This document shows positions 25,778 through 33,050 of a stretch of DNA of 37,141 nt, in pieces. A program made the position numbers and the translations under genes. The stretch lies in contig CALUOK010000020.1 of the NCBI GenBank assembly GCA_944322255.1, positions 1 to 37,141 of the forward strand, in the 5' to 3' direction. The stretch's first letter is position 1; every line of letters begins with the position of its first letter. The notes under the pieces are model-generated. The model was not told where the DNA came from and searched no databases. It saw nothing but the letters and a program-made list of their open reading frames with translations. The DNA is from Candidatus Methanomethylophilaceae archaeon (lineage in GTDB: Archaea > Thermoplasmatota > Thermoplasmata > Methanomassiliicoccales > Methanomethylophilaceae).

Positions 25778-27370
25778 TCAGTAGAGGTCTTCCTTGGTCC
25801 AGATGGTTATGTTGGCGGGCATCTTGGTGATGTTGCCCTTCCTGGTCCCCACGACGGTGGAGATGCCGTTGTCGGCGGACACGTCGAGGATCCTCTGGGA
25901 GATGACGCCGTCGAAGACGATGGCCGCGACCCCCTCGGAGTCCTCCTTCAGGGAGTTGACCAGGCTCTTGACCGCGACCTCGCGGATCAGCTCGTTGTTG
26001 TCGCCGAGCACCTTGGCGTTGTGGGTGGTGGAGAGGTCCAGCAGCATGTCGCGGAAGGCCTCCTGCTCGGGGGTCAGCACCTTGTCGCTGGTCCTCTTGC
26101 CGCGGAGGGTCCTGGTCCTCTTGGGCTTGTCCTCCTTGGACTTCTTGGGCTTCTCCTCGGCGGGCTCCTCTGCGGGGGTCTCGGCGGGCTTCTCCTCGGA
26201 CGCGTCCTCGGCGGGTTCCTCGCGGACCATCAGGTGGGTCTCGCCCTTGACGGCGAGGGACCTCTCGGCGGCGGGCATCTCTATGACTTCGGGGACCTCG
26301 GGCTTCTCCTCCACGGGCTCCTCGGCAGGGGCCTCTGCGGGCTTCTTCCTGTACTTGTCGATGGCCTCGCTGTTGAAGCGCTCCTTCTTGTTCTCCCTCT
26401 CGCGCCTCTCCTCGCGGTCCTTCCTGCGCTCCCTGTGCTCCTCGTCGCGGTCCTTCCTCTCGCGGCGCTCGCGGCGCTCGTGCCTCTCCTCACGGTCCTC
26501 CTCCTCCTCGATCTCGTCGAGGGACCTCTGCTCGGTGACCAGTCCGTTCATCTCCATGTACTGGTCGCCGGGGACCTTGTTCCTGAGGCATTTGATGATC
26601 TGCTTGGCGGTGAGCTCCTCGACCTCGTGGGCGCGGGGCGCGCGGGCGACGAAGTCGACCTCGGCCACCTGGAAGAGCTCCCTGAGGATGAGCTCGCCTC
26701 CCCTGTCGCCGTCGACGAAAGCGGTGGCGACCCTCTCGCGGGAGAGCTCCTGGACGGTCTTGGGGATGTTGGTGCCCTCGACGGCGATGGCGTTCTTGAT
26801 GCCGGCCTTGAGGAGGTTGAGGACGTCGGACCTGCCCTCGACGATGATGATGGCCTCGGAGTCCTTCACGTTGGGTCCGGCGGGGCACCTGTCCTTTCCG
26901 TAGGTGGTGATCTCCTCGACCTGGACGCTCTGCCTGACGCTGTCGGTGAGGTCGAAGCTGGATCCCTTGGACTGCCTGATGAGCTCGTTGAGCAGCTCCT
27001 TGGCGCGCTCGACGACCTTCTCCCTCTTGGTGACGCGGACGTCCTCGATTCCGAGCACGTGGATGGACGCCTTGCAGGGACCGACGCGGTCGACGGTCTC
27101 CAGAGCGGAGGCGAGGATAACGGTCTCCACCTGATCCAGGCTGGAGGACATGTAGATGATACCCTCGGACTTGCCGCCCTTGGAGGTGACCTCGACCTCG
27201 ATCCTGCCGATCCTTCCAGACTTCTGCAGGTCCCTGAGGTCCAGCTCGTCCCCGAGGAGTCCCTCGGTCTGACCGAAGATGGCGCCGACGACATCGGGCT
27301 TCTCGACGATTCCGTCGGCGTTGATCTTCGCTTTAACCATGTACTTCGTTGTGTTTGGATCTATATTCAT
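25778..27370 (-). CDS. dnaG: Archaeal DnaG-type primase with long charged insert
   Basis: A 530-residue protein. The N-terminal archaeal DnaG region (residues ~8-165) precedes the Toprim domain at ~172-255, with EGRSDVLNLL (catalytic Glu179) and VDGDRGGE (D-x-D, 220-222). Archaeal DnaG has primase activity in vitro and is also a core part of the RNA exosome. Residues ~286-430 are an unusually long low-complexity linker: a block of alternating Arg/Glu (~292-332), then Pro/Glu/Ala repeats; a structured C-terminal domain resumes at ~430. Start ATG 27370 follows GGGAGGG 7 nt upstream; the open frame further upstream is not coding. Preceded by a structured ~240-nt region. Confidence 0.93.
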   Translation of the reverse strand: MNIDPNTTKYMVKAKINADGIVEKPDVVGAIFGQTEGLLGDELDLRDLQKSGRIGRIEVEVTSKGGKSEGIIYMSSSLDQVETVILASALETVDRVGPCKASIHVLGIEDVRVTKREKVVERAKELLNELIRQSKGSSFDLTDSVRQSVQVEEITTYGKDRCPAGPNVKDSEAIIIVEGRSDVLNLLKAGIKNAIAVEGTNIPKTVQELSRERVATAFVDGDRGGELILRELFQVAEVDFVARAPRAHEVEELTAKQIIKCLRNKVPGDQYMEMNGLVTEQRSLDEIEEEEDREERHERRERRERKDRDEEHRERRKDREERRERENKKERFNSEAIDKYRKKPAEAPAEEPVEEKPEVPEVIEMPAAERSLAVKGETHLMVREEPAEDASEEKPAETPAEEPAEEKPKKSKEDKPKRTRTLRGKRTSDKVLTPEQEAFRDMLLDLSTTHNAKVLGDNNELIREVAVKSLVNSLKEDSEGVAAIVFDGVISQRILDVSADNGISTVVGTRKGNITKMPANITIWTKEDLY

Positions 27371-27607
27371 GAGCACCCTCCCTGGGTGTTGAGGAGGGAA
27401 AAGCACCAATGCTCCTGCGGATTCCTTCTGCGTACCGTTCAGACCCCTAGGGTCGGGTACGTTCATGTGTAACCAAACCGGAGACACGTCGTTTGCCAGG
27501 TCGGAGCCCCGTTGCCTGCGTGTGCCGGTGTTCGCCGCATTCAAGGCGAGTGATGATTGTGATGATGTGACAGGAGGGATACGGTGCAGTCCCTCGAGCC
27601 ACCGTAT
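27371..27607 (-). ncRNA. Structured leader (or separate RNA) upstream of dnaG
   Basis: Five successive hairpins cover this gap. In plus coordinates: 27579-27586 with 27600-27607 (8 bp, perfect); 27532-27536 with 27545-27549; a long one at 27477-27529 (ACCGG and CCGGT ends with inner ACACG/CGTGT and CAGG/CCTG steps); 27431-27461 (CGTACC/GGTACG outside, GACCC/GGGTC inside); and 27371-27414, in which CCCTCC pairs with the GGGAGG ribosome binding site of dnaG. A TTTATAAA box at 27618-27625 would start a transcript close to the first hairpin. No known RNA family was recognised; it could be a regulatory 5' leader or contain a stable RNA. Confidence 0.5.
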
Positions 27608-27617
27608 GTATATGTTG

Positions 27618-27625
27618 TTTATAAA
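27618..27625 (-). promoter_or_regulatory. TATA box of the dnaG transcript
   Basis: TTTATAAA, self-complementary, lies about 250 nt upstream of the dnaG ATG. The sequence between carries hairpins rather than codons. Confidence 0.55.
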
Positions 27626-27657: not shown

Positions 27658-29868
27658 TCATCCGCTTAACGGCGTGACTTCGGATCGGGCGGACGTCATC
27701 GGAACCAGGGTGACCCCGTCCAGATCGGAGCAGATGCGCACGGTCTCGGCGTCGCAGGTGAACATCAGCACCTGCATCTCCGACGACAGCTCGGCCAGCG
27801 CCCGGCAGGCCCCGGCCTTCCTCTCGGAGTCGAAGGGCAGGAGAACGTCGTCCAATATGACTGGCACCTCGCCGCGACCCATCTCCCTGGCGACTGCCAG
27901 CTTGACGGAAAGCAGCACCTGCGCCCTCAGGCCGGAGCTCCATGCCCCTATGCCCTTGACCTCGTCGCCGGACCTGACCGCCAGGTCCTTGGAGCGGGGG
28001 TCGGTGTCGATCCTGTACCTGCCGTCTGTCATCATGGAGAGGTACCTGTCGGCGGTGGCGATGACCCCGGGCTGGACCCTGGAGTAGATCTCCTGGCAGG
28101 CCGAGTCGGCTATCGCGGCGGCCAGCAGTCCGACGGCGCCTTCGTCCAGAGCGTCAGCGAGCTCCGACTGAAGCTGGGCCCTGCGGTCCATCATCCTCTC
28201 CAGCTCGACGGTGTCCAGGATGGACCTCATCCTCTCCTCGAGGACACCGATCTCCTGGCGTACGTCCCCTATCTCGGAAGACACCGCGTCGCCCTCGTAC
28301 GACACGGGGCACTCGGGAACGTCGGGGTCGAGGCCGGCCTTGGTCAGGGCGTCCCTGATTACGGCTACCTCCCTGTCGATCCTCTCGGCCTCGCGGGTCT
28401 TCTGCAGGCATCTGGCGTAGCCCTCCTCCCCGGAGAACCTCTGGGCGAAGGTGAGCAGGCTGTTGCTGGCAGAGCCCTGCTCCATCCTGGCGCGCATTAT
28501 GTCGTTCTCGGTCTTGGAAAGTGCGGCTGCGGCATCCCTGGCCTTCGACAGGAACGCCACGTCGTCCTCGATACCGAAGGAGTCCATCTCCAGGTCGGAC
28601 ATCACCGACAGCACCTCGTTTTCGAAATGCGACATCCTCTCCCGGATGGCGTCGATCTCCCGGTCCAGGGAGTCGTCGACGACCGGCTTGGGCACCGGAG
28701 CGGCGTGCTTCGGTCTGAGGAGGCCGACAGCGGCGACCGCGGCACCGACCACCGACACGACGATGGCGTACGGCTCGGTGAGGAGCGCGGCCGCGATCCC
28801 CAGCACGATGATGGCGAGTCCGGCGGCCAGCAGGGCCATGGAGCCCCTCCTCCCTGTCCCGGGATCCCTGACGGGCTCCGGCGGAGCCTGTGCACGGGCC
28901 TCCTCCCTGCGGGCCTCCAGCTCCCTCAGCCTGCGTGAGTCCTCCCTGTAGGTGTGGAGCCTCCCGGGCATCGACTCTATCGTCTTCGAGTGGGCGGAGA
29001 CCCTGCGCCTGTCTGCGCCCATCAGGTCCCGCTCCTCCTCCCGCCTCCTGTCCAGAAGGTCCTGGAGGGCGGACTTCTTCTGCTCGGCCTCGGACCTCAG
29101 CTTCGCCATCTCATCCTCGTCTTCGGGGGTTACCGTGACGAACTCGCCGAGGTCCCGGCGACGCTCCCCGAGCTCCCTGAGCCTCCCGTAGTTCCCGATG
29201 TTGGACTGGTAGACGTCGTGGATCCTCTTGGTCTCCCTCAGAGATTCGGAGCTGCTCTCCAGCTCGGCGAGCTTCGACGAGAGCTCCGTCCTCCTCCTGT
29301 CCAGCTCCCCGTAGGAGTCGGTGAGCGACCTGGCCTGGGCGATCCTGTCGTCCATGTCGGAGATCTCCGCATCGAGGGAGATCGCCCTGCTGCGGGAGTT
29401 GGACCTCTTCCCCAGATTGGCGTCCCTCATCTCGTCGGCGGCCTCCCTAGCCGCCGGCATGGCCTCCCCTCCCGGGACGGTCAGGAACCTGGACCTTATC
29501 CCTCCCTCGGTCACCACCTTCTCGTCGTCGAGGTCCGACGACGTCATGGCGAAGACGCTGCGGAACAGCGAAGGGTCATCGGTTCCCACCGGCATCGACG
29601 GCCTCTCGCCCTCCACTGACTTCTGCACCAGACGGATGGTCCTCTCGGCGCCGTCCTGCTCGTAAACAAGCGTCCCTGAGTCAGTCTTCTCCCTGGCGGG
29701 GTACTGGTTCCTCTTGTTGGACGGGACCAGCGTGGTCCTGATGAACTCCATCAGGGTGGTCTTGCCGCTCTCGTTGGGGCCGTGGAACACGGTCATGCCC
29801 TCCCCCACGGAGAAGGTCCTGTCGCGCATCGCGCCGAAGGAGCCGATCCTGACGCCCCTTATCCTCAT
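27658..29868 (-). CDS. YhaN/Rad50-like ATPase with two membrane helices
   Basis: A 736-residue SMC/Rad50-family ATPase. Walker A is GPNESGKTT at 30-38, the degenerate signature region is GIGAWSSGLRAQ and Walker B is VPVILDDVLLPFD near the C-terminus. The arms are coiled coil (~165-330 and ~395-590). Instead of a zinc hook, two hydrophobic helices sit at ~343-363 and ~366-385 in the middle, as in Bacillus YhaN, so the coils are tethered to the membrane. Its ATG (29868) overlaps the stop of the Mre11-like gene (ATGA), so the two are coupled and likely form one complex. The frame stays open upstream but only as an antisense shadow of that gene. Confidence 0.87.
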   Translation of the reverse strand: MRIRGVRIGSFGAMRDRTFSVGEGMTVFHGPNESGKTTLMEFIRTTLVPSNKRNQYPAREKTDSGTLVYEQDGAERTIRLVQKSVEGERPSMPVGTDDPSLFRSVFAMTSSDLDDEKVVTEGGIRSRFLTVPGGEAMPAAREAADEMRDANLGKRSNSRSRAISLDAEISDMDDRIAQARSLTDSYGELDRRRTELSSKLAELESSSESLRETKRIHDVYQSNIGNYGRLRELGERRRDLGEFVTVTPEDEDEMAKLRSEAEQKKSALQDLLDRRREEERDLMGADRRRVSAHSKTIESMPGRLHTYREDSRRLRELEARREEARAQAPPEPVRDPGTGRRGSMALLAAGLAIIVLGIAAALLTEPYAIVVSVVGAAVAAVGLLRPKHAAPVPKPVVDDSLDREIDAIRERMSHFENEVLSVMSDLEMDSFGIEDDVAFLSKARDAAAALSKTENDIMRARMEQGSASNSLLTFAQRFSGEEGYARCLQKTREAERIDREVAVIRDALTKAGLDPDVPECPVSYEGDAVSSEIGDVRQEIGVLEERMRSILDTVELERMMDRRAQLQSELADALDEGAVGLLAAAIADSACQEIYSRVQPGVIATADRYLSMMTDGRYRIDTDPRSKDLAVRSGDEVKGIGAWSSGLRAQVLLSVKLAVAREMGRGEVPVILDDVLLPFDSERKAGACRALAELSSEMQVLMFTCDAETVRICSDLDGVTLVPMTSARSEVTPLSG

Positions 29869-31052
29869 CTGGACCCCTCCATCCTGGTGACGAGCATGCC
29901 AGTGGCCCTTTCCACGAGCGCCTTCAGCTCCTCGTCGCTCATCGACTCGAAATGCTCCCTGTGCTTCGCCGCGATGGTGTTGTCCAGGATGACCTCCAGG
30001 ATGGCGTCCCTCCCGGCGTCTGCAAGAGCCCTTCCCATCGCGATCGCCATGGCGGCCATGTCGGAGCCCTCGGCCCTGGCGTCCAGGTCTATGGCCGGGG
30101 TGGTGTCCACGGAGATCTCGCAAACCGTGCATCCCAGCACCTTCGAGAGGTACTCGGTGTTCTCCCTGGTGTGCAGCCTGAGCATCCCGTCCATCTCGCC
30201 CGACCCCGTGAACCTGAGCCTGACGATGTCTCCCTGGGTGACCCTTCCGCGCAGTTCGGTTATGACGTCCTCCATGCCCTTCCAGGTTATGTTGACCAGC
30301 AGGTCCCTCCACACGATACCCTGCGTGGGTACGAAGCGGAGCTCGGAGACGCGCCCGCCGTCGACGGTCACGAGGTAGCACCCCTTCTCGTCGGTCTCGG
30401 TGATCTTCCTGCCCTGGATGTTCCCGGGATAGACCACGTACGGGTCCTCCGAGAGCACCGCCCTCGTATGGACGTGCCCGATGGCCCAGTAGTCGACGCC
30501 CCTGCCCATCATGTCTGACAGCCTGCAGGGGGAGTAGTCGTACTGCGCGCCGACGGCATCCACGTCGCAGTGCATGCAGGCAACCGTGAACCTGTCCGGG
30601 GAACCCCTCACCATGGACGGGAGGTTGCGCTCCTCGTGCCAGTCGGCGAAGCTCACCCCGACGATCTCGACCCCGTCCAGGCCCTCCAGCTCTATGCTCT
30701 CCGGCTCCGTCCCGAACTCGTGCACGTTCGGGGGATAGGGTATGCTGGCCTCCCAGTCGGTGTGGGGGTCGTGGTTGCCCCTGGCTATGAAGCAGGGGAT
30801 GCCCAGGCGGGCCAGCTCGGTGACGAACCTGTGCCTGGTGGCGGGGGTTATGGTGGACTCGTCGAAGGCGTCTCCGGCGATGACCATGAAGTCCGCGCCC
30901 TCCGAGATCGCGAGGTCGACGATGCGCGAGAACGACTCGAAGACCGACTCCGTCATCCTCTCCCCGACATCCGGGTCCTTCGAAGAGACCCCCTTGAACC
31001 TGCTCCCCAGATGCAGGTCCGCGCAGTGGACGAATCTGAAATGTGCACCCAT
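29865..31052 (-). CDS. YhaO/Mre11-like DNA repair exonuclease
   Basis: A 395-residue metallophosphoesterase. All five motifs are visible: CADLHLGS (~10-17), VIAGDAFD (~57-64), ARGNHDPH (~94-101), ACMHCDV and AIGHVHT, giving the two-metal nuclease site of Mre11/SbcD. The C-terminal ~150 residues form a capping and partner-binding region. With the downstream membrane-tethered ATPase it matches the bacterial YhaO-YhaN pair more than the standard archaeal Mre11-Rad50. ATG at 31052 lies 25 nt from the TATA box, so the mRNA is probably leaderless. The promoter carries the 24-bp element shared with the Hjc-like nuclease. Confidence 0.9.
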   Translation of the reverse strand: MGAHFRFVHCADLHLGSRFKGVSSKDPDVGERMTESVFESFSRIVDLAISEGADFMVIAGDAFDESTITPATRHRFVTELARLGIPCFIARGNHDPHTDWEASIPYPPNVHEFGTEPESIELEGLDGVEIVGVSFADWHEERNLPSMVRGSPDRFTVACMHCDVDAVGAQYDYSPCRLSDMMGRGVDYWAIGHVHTRAVLSEDPYVVYPGNIQGRKITETDEKGCYLVTVDGGRVSELRFVPTQGIVWRDLLVNITWKGMEDVITELRGRVTQGDIVRLRFTGSGEMDGMLRLHTRENTEYLSKVLGCTVCEISVDTTPAIDLDARAEGSDMAAMAIAMGRALADAGRDAILEVILDNTIAAKHREHFESMSDEELKALVERATGMLVTRMEGSR

Positions 31053-31109: not shown

Positions 31110-31217
31110 GAAAAAGTATTAACGGACATTGAATCGTCATGCGGAGACCGCCGCCGGCATGCTGGCATCAAGAGCCATTATTATCTGGATTAGCCATCCA
31201 TCTCGTCGGAGAGCCAC

Positions 31218-33050
31218 ATGGACTGCATCAAGAAGAAGGTGAACGAGGAGCTGAAGGCCGGATGGATCGGCCCAAACCGGAGCTGCGACTACCACCCCAG
31301 CCACTTCGAGGGGCAGGACTGCACTTTCTGCTACTGCCCGTTCTACCCCTGCGAGGACACCGACCTGGGGGACTTCATAGTAGGCAGGCGCGGCAACAGG
31401 ATCTGGAACTGCTCCGACTGCCTCTTCATACACCGCACGCCCGTGGTGAAGTTCGTGCTCTCCGAGATCGAGCGCCTGGGCATCACCGAGGCCGGAGACC
31501 CCCGCTTCCCGGATGTCCTGGCATCGGCCAAGGAGAGGTTCTACCGCCCCGGCAGGGCCCTGATGGTCGTCGGCGCCACATCCGACGCGGGGAAGTCCGT
31601 CACGGTGGCGGCGATATGCAGGATCCTCCACAGGAGGGGCTTCCTGGTGGCCCCGTTCAAGAGCCAGAACATGAGCCTGAACTCCAAGGTCACCCGCTCC
31701 GGCTCCGAGATCGCCATGATACAGACCCTCCAGGCAAAGGCCGCCGGGCTGAAGAACCCGGACGCCCACATGAACCCCATACTCCTGAAGCCGAAGGGCG
31801 ACACCACGTCCCAGGTCATGGTCCTGGGCCAGCCCTACGGCGACTACAACGTCACCGACTACTACGGCAAGTTCGTCCCCGGGCCCGGCAGGGAGATCGT
31901 CCGCGAGAACGTGGACTTCCTGAAGGGCAGGTACGACTTCGTCATCATGGAGGGCGCCGGCTCCCCCGCGGAGATAAACATCTACGACAGGGACATAGCC
32001 AACATGGGCGCGGCGGTCATCGCCGACGCCGACGTCGTCCTGGTGGTCAACGTGGAGTGGGGAGGCTCCTTCGCATACGCCTTGGGCACCATAGAGCTCA
32101 TCCCCGAGGAGGACAGGAAGCGCATCAAGGGCGTCATATTCAACAACCTGCGCGGGAAGGCAGACAGCTTCAGGTCCGCCATACCGGAGTTCGAGAGGAT
32201 CTCCGGGGTGCCGGTCATCGGCGTGGTCCCCCATGCTGACGTGGTGCTGCCCTCCGAGGACTCGGAGGCCCTGCGCGGCATCCGCGGGAAGGGCGAGGGC
32301 AGGTGCCTCGTGGGAGTGGTCAAGTTCCCCAGGATCGCCAACTTCACCGACCTGGACCCGCTGTTCCTGGAGGATGTGTCCGTGGTGTTCGTGGAGAAGG
32401 CCTCGGACCTGGACGGCGTGGACGCGGTCGTGCTCCCCGGAACCAAGAACACGATCAACGACCTCAGATGGATGGACGAGCGCGGCATCTCCGACAGGCT
32501 CAGGGAGCTCCGCGGCAAGGTGCCGATCGTGGGCATCTGCGGGGGGTACCAGATGATGGGGACCACCCTGGACGACTCCCAGGGGATCGAGGGAGGTGTC
32601 AAGGATTGCGTGGCGAAGGGCCTCGGGTTCTTCGACAACGTCACCACCTTCGGCGAGTACTCCAAGAGGATAGTAAATAACACCGCCGAGATGCTGGTGG
32701 GAGAGGGCGGCGAGGTCACCGGATACGAGCTCCACATGGGTGTCACCGACGTGCATGAGAAGCCGCTGTTCAGGATGACCAACCGCTTCGGTCCTGACGC
32801 CGGCGAGGAGGAGGGCTCCGTCAGGGAGGACGAGATGCTCTTCGGCACCTACCAGCACGGGATATTCGACAAGATGCCCTTCAGGAAGTACTTCCTCTCG
32901 TTCGTCAGCCACGACGGCAAGAGGCCCGACACCTCCGACGTCAGGGACTACGACGACATAATCGAGGAGAACATCGACAGGCTGGCGGACGTGTTCGAGG
33001 AGAACCTGGACATCCCCGCGCTCCTGGGCATCCTGGGGGTGTCGGAATGA
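31218..33050 (+). CDS. cbiP: Cobyric acid synthase fused to an N-terminal Cys-rich domain
   Basis: A 610-residue amidotransferase that amidates adenosylcobyrinic acid a,c-diamide to cobyric acid in B12 synthesis. Residues ~19-75 are a small metal-binding-type domain (GQDCTFCYCPFYPC, then WNCSDCLFIH) not present in classical CbiP. The synthetase part begins at ~113 with P-loop GATSDAGKS, then FKSQNMSLNS and EGAGSPAEINI. The glutaminase-3 domain has C441 in GICGGYQMMG and H547 in GTYQHGIFD. GGAG lies before the ATG at 31218. The next gene overlaps it by 4 nt. Cobamides are essential here for methyl transfer, in line with the methyltransferase at 10034-11089. Confidence 0.92.
   Translation: MDCIKKKVNEELKAGWIGPNRSCDYHPSHFEGQDCTFCYCPFYPCEDTDLGDFIVGRRGNRIWNCSDCLFIHRTPVVKFVLSEIERLGITEAGDPRFPDVLASAKERFYRPGRALMVVGATSDAGKSVTVAAICRILHRRGFLVAPFKSQNMSLNSKVTRSGSEIAMIQTLQAKAAGLKNPDAHMNPILLKPKGDTTSQVMVLGQPYGDYNVTDYYGKFVPGPGREIVRENVDFLKGRYDFVIMEGAGSPAEINIYDRDIANMGAAVIADADVVLVVNVEWGGSFAYALGTIELIPEEDRKRIKGVIFNNLRGKADSFRSAIPEFERISGVPVIGVVPHADVVLPSEDSEALRGIRGKGEGRCLVGVVKFPRIANFTDLDPLFLEDVSVVFVEKASDLDGVDAVVLPGTKNTINDLRWMDERGISDRLRELRGKVPIVGICGGYQMMGTTLDDSQGIEGGVKDCVAKGLGFFDNVTTFGEYSKRIVNNTAEMLVGEGGEVTGYELHMGVTDVHEKPLFRMTNRFGPDAGEEEGSVREDEMLFGTYQHGIFDKMPFRKYFLSFVSHDGKRPDTSDVRDYDDIIEENIDRLADVFEENLDIPALLGILGVSE

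Follow-up and report, generated by a model that had tools for sequence, protein, structure and literature searches.

A conserved, coevolving leader RNA upstream of dnaG in Methanomassiliicoccales and a proposed two-state model of dnaG translation

We describe a conserved and previously unlisted leader RNA directly upstream of dnaG in archaea of the order Methanomassiliicoccales, the existence of which we regard as nearly certain. In nearly all of 79 distinct leaders the start of the leader pairs with a U-rich strand near the dnaG start codon (helix P1), the strand that follows forms a second helix immediately within the first (P2), and this pairing is retained while the sequences of the paired strands vary widely. 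Sequence comparison and predicted folds incline us, somewhat beyond an even judgement, to the reading that the leader acts as a two-state translational switch governing access to the Shine-Dalgarno sequence (SD) of dnaG.

The leader and its place at the dnaG locus

The window, by which we mean the whole stretch of 37,141 nucleotides analysed, belongs to contig C20 of a draft genome. This genome, 1.88 Mb in size and 96% complete, is that of a member of the Methanomassiliicoccales close to Candidatus Methanomethylophilaceae. The features of the dnaG gene and its leader are as follows.

25778..27370, minus strand: dnaG coding sequence (archaeal DnaG, 530 aa; NCBIfam NF003108.1, 532 bits, E 9e-160; Pfam Toprim)
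27618..27625, minus strand: TATA box TTTATAAA of the dnaG leader (sequence; TATA-like box in relatives too)
27590..27595, minus strand: P1a 5' strand GAGGGA, where the transcript is expected to begin; partner 27399-27394 (cofolding, covariation, permutation z -8.4)
27583..27587, minus strand: P1b 5' strand GCACC; partner 27407-27403 (cofolding, covariation)
27571..27576, minus strand: P2 5' strand CUCCUG; partner 27417-27412 (permutation z -6.1)
27579-27574, minus strand: UCCCUC, pairing with the P1a 5' strand in an alternative local 5' hairpin (z -3.3, 1/2000; folding energy)
27551..27570, minus strand: single-stranded box UCACAUCAUCACAAUCAUCA, candidate binding site; order consensus UUCAC-n-AUCACNAUCA (near-invariant columns, UCAY clusters)
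27532..27549, minus strand: P3 hairpin UCGCC/GGCGA (96% paired, double changes in 5/5 pairs)
27477..27529, minus strand: P4, a 53-nt hairpin with stems 27529-27525/27481-27477, 27522-27519/27488-27485, 27518-27515/27500-27497 and 27511-27509/27504-27502 (conserved in the genus, unrecognisable in other genera)
27431..27461, minus strand: P5 hairpin CGUACC/GGUACG, inner stem GACCC/GGGUC (sequence; close relatives have comparable stems made of different bases, judged by eye)
27412..27417, minus strand: P2 3' strand CAGGAG (cofolding, covariation, permutation)
27403..27407, minus strand: P1b 3' strand GGUGC (cofolding, covariation)
27394..27402, minus strand: P1a 3' strand and U run, UUUUCCCUC (cofolding, covariation, permutation)
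27374..27388, minus strand: SD hairpin CACCC-AGGGA-GGGUG, 27388-27384 with 27378-27374 (permutation z -4.2, 0/2000)
27381-27377, minus strand: SD GGAGG, inside the SD hairpin

The fold is long-range: 27595-27571 pairs with 27417-27394 over a span of about 190 nt, the 3' strands lie 20-45 nt before the start codon, and the UCC of the P1a 3' strand can alternatively pair with the SD as a built-in anti-SD. Among 53 leaders, the P1 3' strand carries a U run of at least 4 in 37 and UCC in 45, a recognisable SD is missing in three, and the SD hairpin is weak, with 70% of its cells paired in the model alignment. P3 covaries throughout the order wherever it can be aligned; P4 and P5 are kept within the genus, other genera having a different body between P3 and P2'. 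The most constant stretch is the unpaired box between P2 and P3 (columns 31-34 and 47-53 are almost invariant in the 53 leaders), and UCAY clusters exceed their number in shuffled sequences, 3.81 to 1.99 within the order and 2.80 to 1.64 elsewhere in the class.

The good TATA box that an initial annotation of this DNA had reported is found at 27625-27618, and the long gap that it gave between box and ATG (about 240 nt) agrees with the roughly 225 nt that separate the expected transcript start from the dnaG ATG in the window. A TATA-like box precedes P1 in 48 of 52 relatives, with a median of 25 nt from box centre to P1 start (IQR 24-26); such a spacing of TATA box and transcription start is usual for archaea, and the dnaG transcript is therefore expected to begin at P1. 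Because P1 also ends only 15-28 nt before the AUG across leaders, there is no space for a second promoter after the element, and an RNA starting at P1 should run on into dnaG. Judged from sequence, the element should be part of the dnaG transcript.

The gene upstream of dnaG is SMC-like in 41 loci and is replaced by others in other clades, and the element keeps its position directly before dnaG through these changes; since dnaG is the constant partner, the element travels with dnaG. This bears on the reading of the element as an independent noncoding RNA, extending from the TATA box to the U run of the P1 3' strand with its ends paired, in which case dnaG would be expressed by read-through or processing. 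The long helix closing the ends, the U run of at least 4 in 37/53 leaders and the single copy per genome (see below) would all suit such an RNA, and termination at U tracts by aCPSF1 is known in Methanococcus maripaludis (PMC8716108). However, all confirmed loci lie directly before dnaG though the upstream genes vary, the 3' end of the element and the SD hairpin are in register with the ATG, 13 of the 53 leaders have no U run longer than 2, and an independent RNA would not need a 5' strand that holds the SD open, as the native strands do in silico. We consider this reading rather unlikely.

Several other features of the window and of the protein were recorded. The Rad50/SMC-like gene (907 aa, ending at 27658) and, before it, a gene for a Mre11-like phosphoesterase (395 aa) overlap directly upstream of dnaG (27658-31052, minus strand); their proteins score far under the curated Rad50 and Mre11 cut-offs, so that the two genes represent a divergent pair. 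The reading frame of 591 aa at 31140-32912 on the minus strand has no match in Pfam. An Rfam match to sR41, a C/D box RNA, is found at 453-505 on the plus strand with a score of 54.6 (gathering score 54) and recognisable boxes (C GATGATGA, D' CTGA, C' GTGATGA, D CTGA). In DnaG itself, residues ~330-390 of 530 are often unaligned among relatives and both ends are conserved.

Coevolution of the closing helices

The folding energy of the single sequence is ordinary when compared with dinucleotide shuffles (z -0.66; opposite strand z -0.99). As one sequence folds no better than its shuffles, the evidence must come from relatives, here 80 dnaG loci from the named genomes and further congeners, which yielded the 79 distinct leaders. 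Coevolution was assessed with an alignment-free permutation test comparing native 5'/3' ends with ends from other species in 27 dissimilar representatives (2000 permutations). P1 gives z -8.4 and P2 z -6.1, with 0/2000 each, and other pairings of the same segments range from z -1.6 to 0.5; over all 79 leaders the mean z is -1.51, with controls near 0. The local 5' hairpin, which excludes P1 and P2, coevolves as well in the 27 representatives (z -3.3, 1/2000), which is not required by P1 and P2 alone; the hairpin is also under selection. Pairing of P1' with the SD shows no significant coevolution (z -1.5, 139/2000), the SD being nearly constant and hence offering little covariation to expect. 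The 25 leaders that were not matched by our covariance model were thinned to a set of 20 dissimilar ones for a separate test; the P1/P2 end pairing in these model-independent leaders gives z -7.3 (0/5000) and the upstream control z -1.2.

A model-fitted alignment of the 53 leaders (A2) has double changes in 23 of the 29 model pairs. The double-change cells number 159, compared to 55 ± 6.6 in shuffled data, and collapse when the partners are slid by 1-3 columns; against a tree-simulated null, 9 of 22 testable pairs are significant. This alignment was built on the structure and is biased towards it, and for that reason is not used as sole evidence. Separate sequence-only alignments of the two ends gave no covariation result under a tree-based null; the helix strands slip in register in such alignments, which is why the alignment-free permutation tests were used instead. 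Within the helices G-U outnumbers A-C by 70 to 31; P1 and the SD hairpin show this best (in P2 and P3 the two are balanced), and the excess indicates that the constrained strand is the one transcribed into dnaG; the covarying helices thus lie on the transcribed strand. An antisense C/D-box RNA on the plus strand was considered and rejected, since the G-U excess places the constraint on the other strand and the C-box-like letters are not kept.

The covariance model, trained on 18 congeners, recovers the site in another 35 loci, each time at the start of dnaG, and in the fetched loci the sites end at the dnaG start codon or a few bases from it. It has a single match in the genome of the window; of 147 genomes of the order, 57 have a match, likewise a single one each, and not all of these were inspected by eye; one of the 57 (G104) is a 23-nt partial match. 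An origin of the hairpins by chance, without any function, would agree with the ordinary folding energy of the single sequence, but this is refuted by the covariation and permutation tests in relatives, and we accord it practically no probability.

A proposed two-state switch

Fifty leaders were folded by partition function with the 5' strand native, removed, swapped with that of another species, or shuffled. The SD is unpaired at 0.60 with the native strand, 0.34 without it, 0.40 with swapped strands and 0.33 with shuffled ones (Wilcoxon p 1.3e-9, 6e-11 and 4e-13 for removed, swapped and shuffled, respectively; 5e-5, 8e-6 and 4e-8 in 26 representatives), while removal of the 5' strand raises the pairing between the SD and the P1 3' strand from 0.06 to 0.33. 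For the window sequence the SD is unpaired at 0.60 with the 5' strand and 0.18 without it. As the native 5' strand keeps the SD open in these predictions, the conserved fold would be the open state. The 5' hairpin has a mean energy of -7.7 kcal/mol compared to -2.4 for shuffled strands, and the closed state, its energy computed by splitting the RNA, falls short of the global fold in predicted stability by a mean of 7.3 kcal/mol (5.0 in the shuffled control). It follows that without ligand a switch should be mostly ON, and that closing it needs either a factor or folding during transcription with the 5' hairpin forming first.

The model that we propose can be summarised in three steps. In the ON state P1 and P2 would be formed, joining the 5' start with the strands just upstream of the SD and leaving the SD mostly open. 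In the OFF state the 5' strand would be tied up in its own hairpin and P1 and P2 lost, whereupon the P1 3' strand, now free, rich in U and bearing UCC, would cover the SD together with its neighbours. The balance between the two would be set by a protein or other ligand reading the UCAC box between P2 and P3, and the UUCAC...AUCACnAUCA box is, from its conservation, the likely sensor. The two folds are mutually exclusive, both coevolve, and they are predicted in silico to alter access to the SD; the non-significant coevolution of P1' with the SD counts mildly against the switch.

Two further readings accept the structure and assign it a different role. Transcription attenuation would have P1 hide the U run from a termination factor and the 5' hairpin expose it, so that early termination competes with read-through; the U run does lie within the P1 3' strand and is retained in several lineages outside the order, and the exclusive 5' hairpin coevolves. 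However, U runs are absent or short in about one quarter of the leaders with the SD-linked features still there, and the predicted folding makes SD access dependent on the 5' strand, so that we hold attenuation to be unlikely. The closing helix at the very 5' end, strong and conserved, and the conserved single-stranded box could also belong to an element of mRNA stability or to a constant RNA-protein scaffold, such as a landing place for the exosome, without any switching. Coevolution of the alternative 5' hairpin (z -3.3) and the in silico effect on the SD speak against a static element of this kind, which we regard as very improbable.

The translational switch is also what the initial annotation had suggested, from a chain of five hairpins, and the comparison with relatives bears out the idea, in that covariation is strong and predicted SD access depends on the 5' end of the leader, but only about half of the anatomy. 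All five hairpins can be drawn, and the second (27549-27532), third (27529-27477) and fourth (27461-27431) are kept in close relatives. The first (~27606-27580) is not conserved among relatives, and the fifth, in which CCCTCC pairs with GGGAGG, is not the conserved arrangement, the coevolving partners being 27595-27571 and 27417-27394 and the z of P1' with the SD only -1.5; in the predicted folds the first and fifth approximate the closed state, and the conserved long-range helix would be the open state. The 53-nt hairpin, put forward as a ligand module, is not the best candidate, with conservation confined to the genus as opposed to the order-wide UCAC box. Of the checks named at the time, conservation and covariation in relatives proved strong (P1 z -8.4; independent leaders z -7.3), and the search of Rfam matched no family at the leader above its gathering threshold (best E 2.3, on the opposite strand; none at E 0.5 in 15 relatives).

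Among possible ligands for the proposed switch we favour, as one hypothesis drawn by analogy, feedback by DnaG or by the DnaG-carrying exosome, because proteins of RNA degradation are known to be sensed by the leaders of their own mRNAs. Such feedback is attractive in that the archaeal exosome contains DnaG as an RNA-binding subunit (PMC7667871). Only tentatively, and as a possibility that we rate well short of even, do we advance the proposal in full: an undescribed leader RNA as old as much of Thermoplasmatota, whose UCAC box senses DnaG, the DnaG-exosome or another ligand and switches dnaG translation.

Reach beyond the order and relation to known leaders

In several dnaG leaders from other orders and classes an A-rich strand ~100-250 nt upstream matches the U-rich strand before the SD, for example GGAAAGTAGTCTATC with GGTAGACTATTTTCC in L173, and likewise in L169, L151, L139, L196, L211, L193 and L205. 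A shuffled-null helix scan reaches p 0.05 in 10 of 32 testable class sequences, compared to 1/32 in the control; it replaces a duplex test over wide windows in the class, in which GC content made the controls significant too. Over 38 families the mean z is -0.71 (t -3.7) against -0.13 for the reversed control, and UCAY clusters are enriched in the class and hardly outside it. Several families, f14, f22, f28, f35, f44 and f50 among them, have dnaG leaders without a clear closing helix. From these sequence comparisons the closing helix likely extends to parts of the class, its extension to other classes of the phylum is suggestive, and the element may be as old as the phylum and lost in several lineages. 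Separately, we observed perfect or near-perfect complementarity of 12-21 bp between leader start and pre-SD region in L169, L170, L173, L174, L196, L205 and L211, from other orders and classes of Thermoplasmatota.

A literature search over main texts found no description of a dnaG leader. SnoRNA-like Rfam matches at permissive thresholds are at chance level and on the opposite strand only, and archaeal RNase P RNA (RF00373) was set aside, the copy of this genome being elsewhere (contig C15, 200.9 bits). The nearest working analogues are 1) the archaeal L7Ae leader, 2) archaeal ribosomal-protein leaders and 3) bacterial RNase leaders. The structure of the L7Ae 5' UTR controls downstream translation in archaea through feedback by the gene product (PMC5539422); the dnaG leader is likewise an archaeal mRNA leader with a structure that controls translation of the downstream gene (for dnaG, a prediction), but it differs in structure and gene, the L7Ae leader working by an L7Ae-bound kink-turn. 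Kink-turns (tandem G-A) are not enriched in dnaG leaders (11/53 vs 24% of shuffled sequences). The leaders of S15, eL15 and L4 are described in PMC7247131 as structured, detected by covariation and presumed to bind protein; they share with the dnaG leader that a structured archaeal leader of a conserved gene was found by covariation, and differ in belonging to other genes and lineages, dnaG being absent from the main text of that paper.

The third likeness, to the E. coli rne 5' UTR (Rfam rne5) and other RNase leaders, is by analogy that of a leader of an RNA-degradation protein with a feedback model. The rne element is bacterial and acts through mRNA decay, whereas the dnaG leader has no Rfam match. 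This analogy draws partly on PMC10989929. With translational riboswitches the dnaG leader shares a 5' element, a closing helix adjacent to the SD, two predicted, mutually exclusive folds and a conserved unpaired core; unlike typical metabolite aptamers most of its body between P3 and P2' varies by genus, and no Rfam riboswitch matches it.

Few cis-regulatory RNAs are known or predicted in archaea, according to PMC7247131; the dnaG leader is probably a genetic switch of great age, and archaeal examples of this kind are rare. It is unusually well supported by coevolution, comes with a concrete two-state model, and occurs once per genome throughout an order of methanogens of gut, rumen and termite. 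The leader sits on the gene of the primase-like DnaG, which is also a subunit of the RNA exosome, and thereby gives a handle on a possible archaeal control of the exosome cap; the same holds for translational switching in a setting where short mRNA leaders are common. If the proposal in full were true, the leader would be an archaeal counterpart to RNase-E-type feedback, or a new class of riboswitch.
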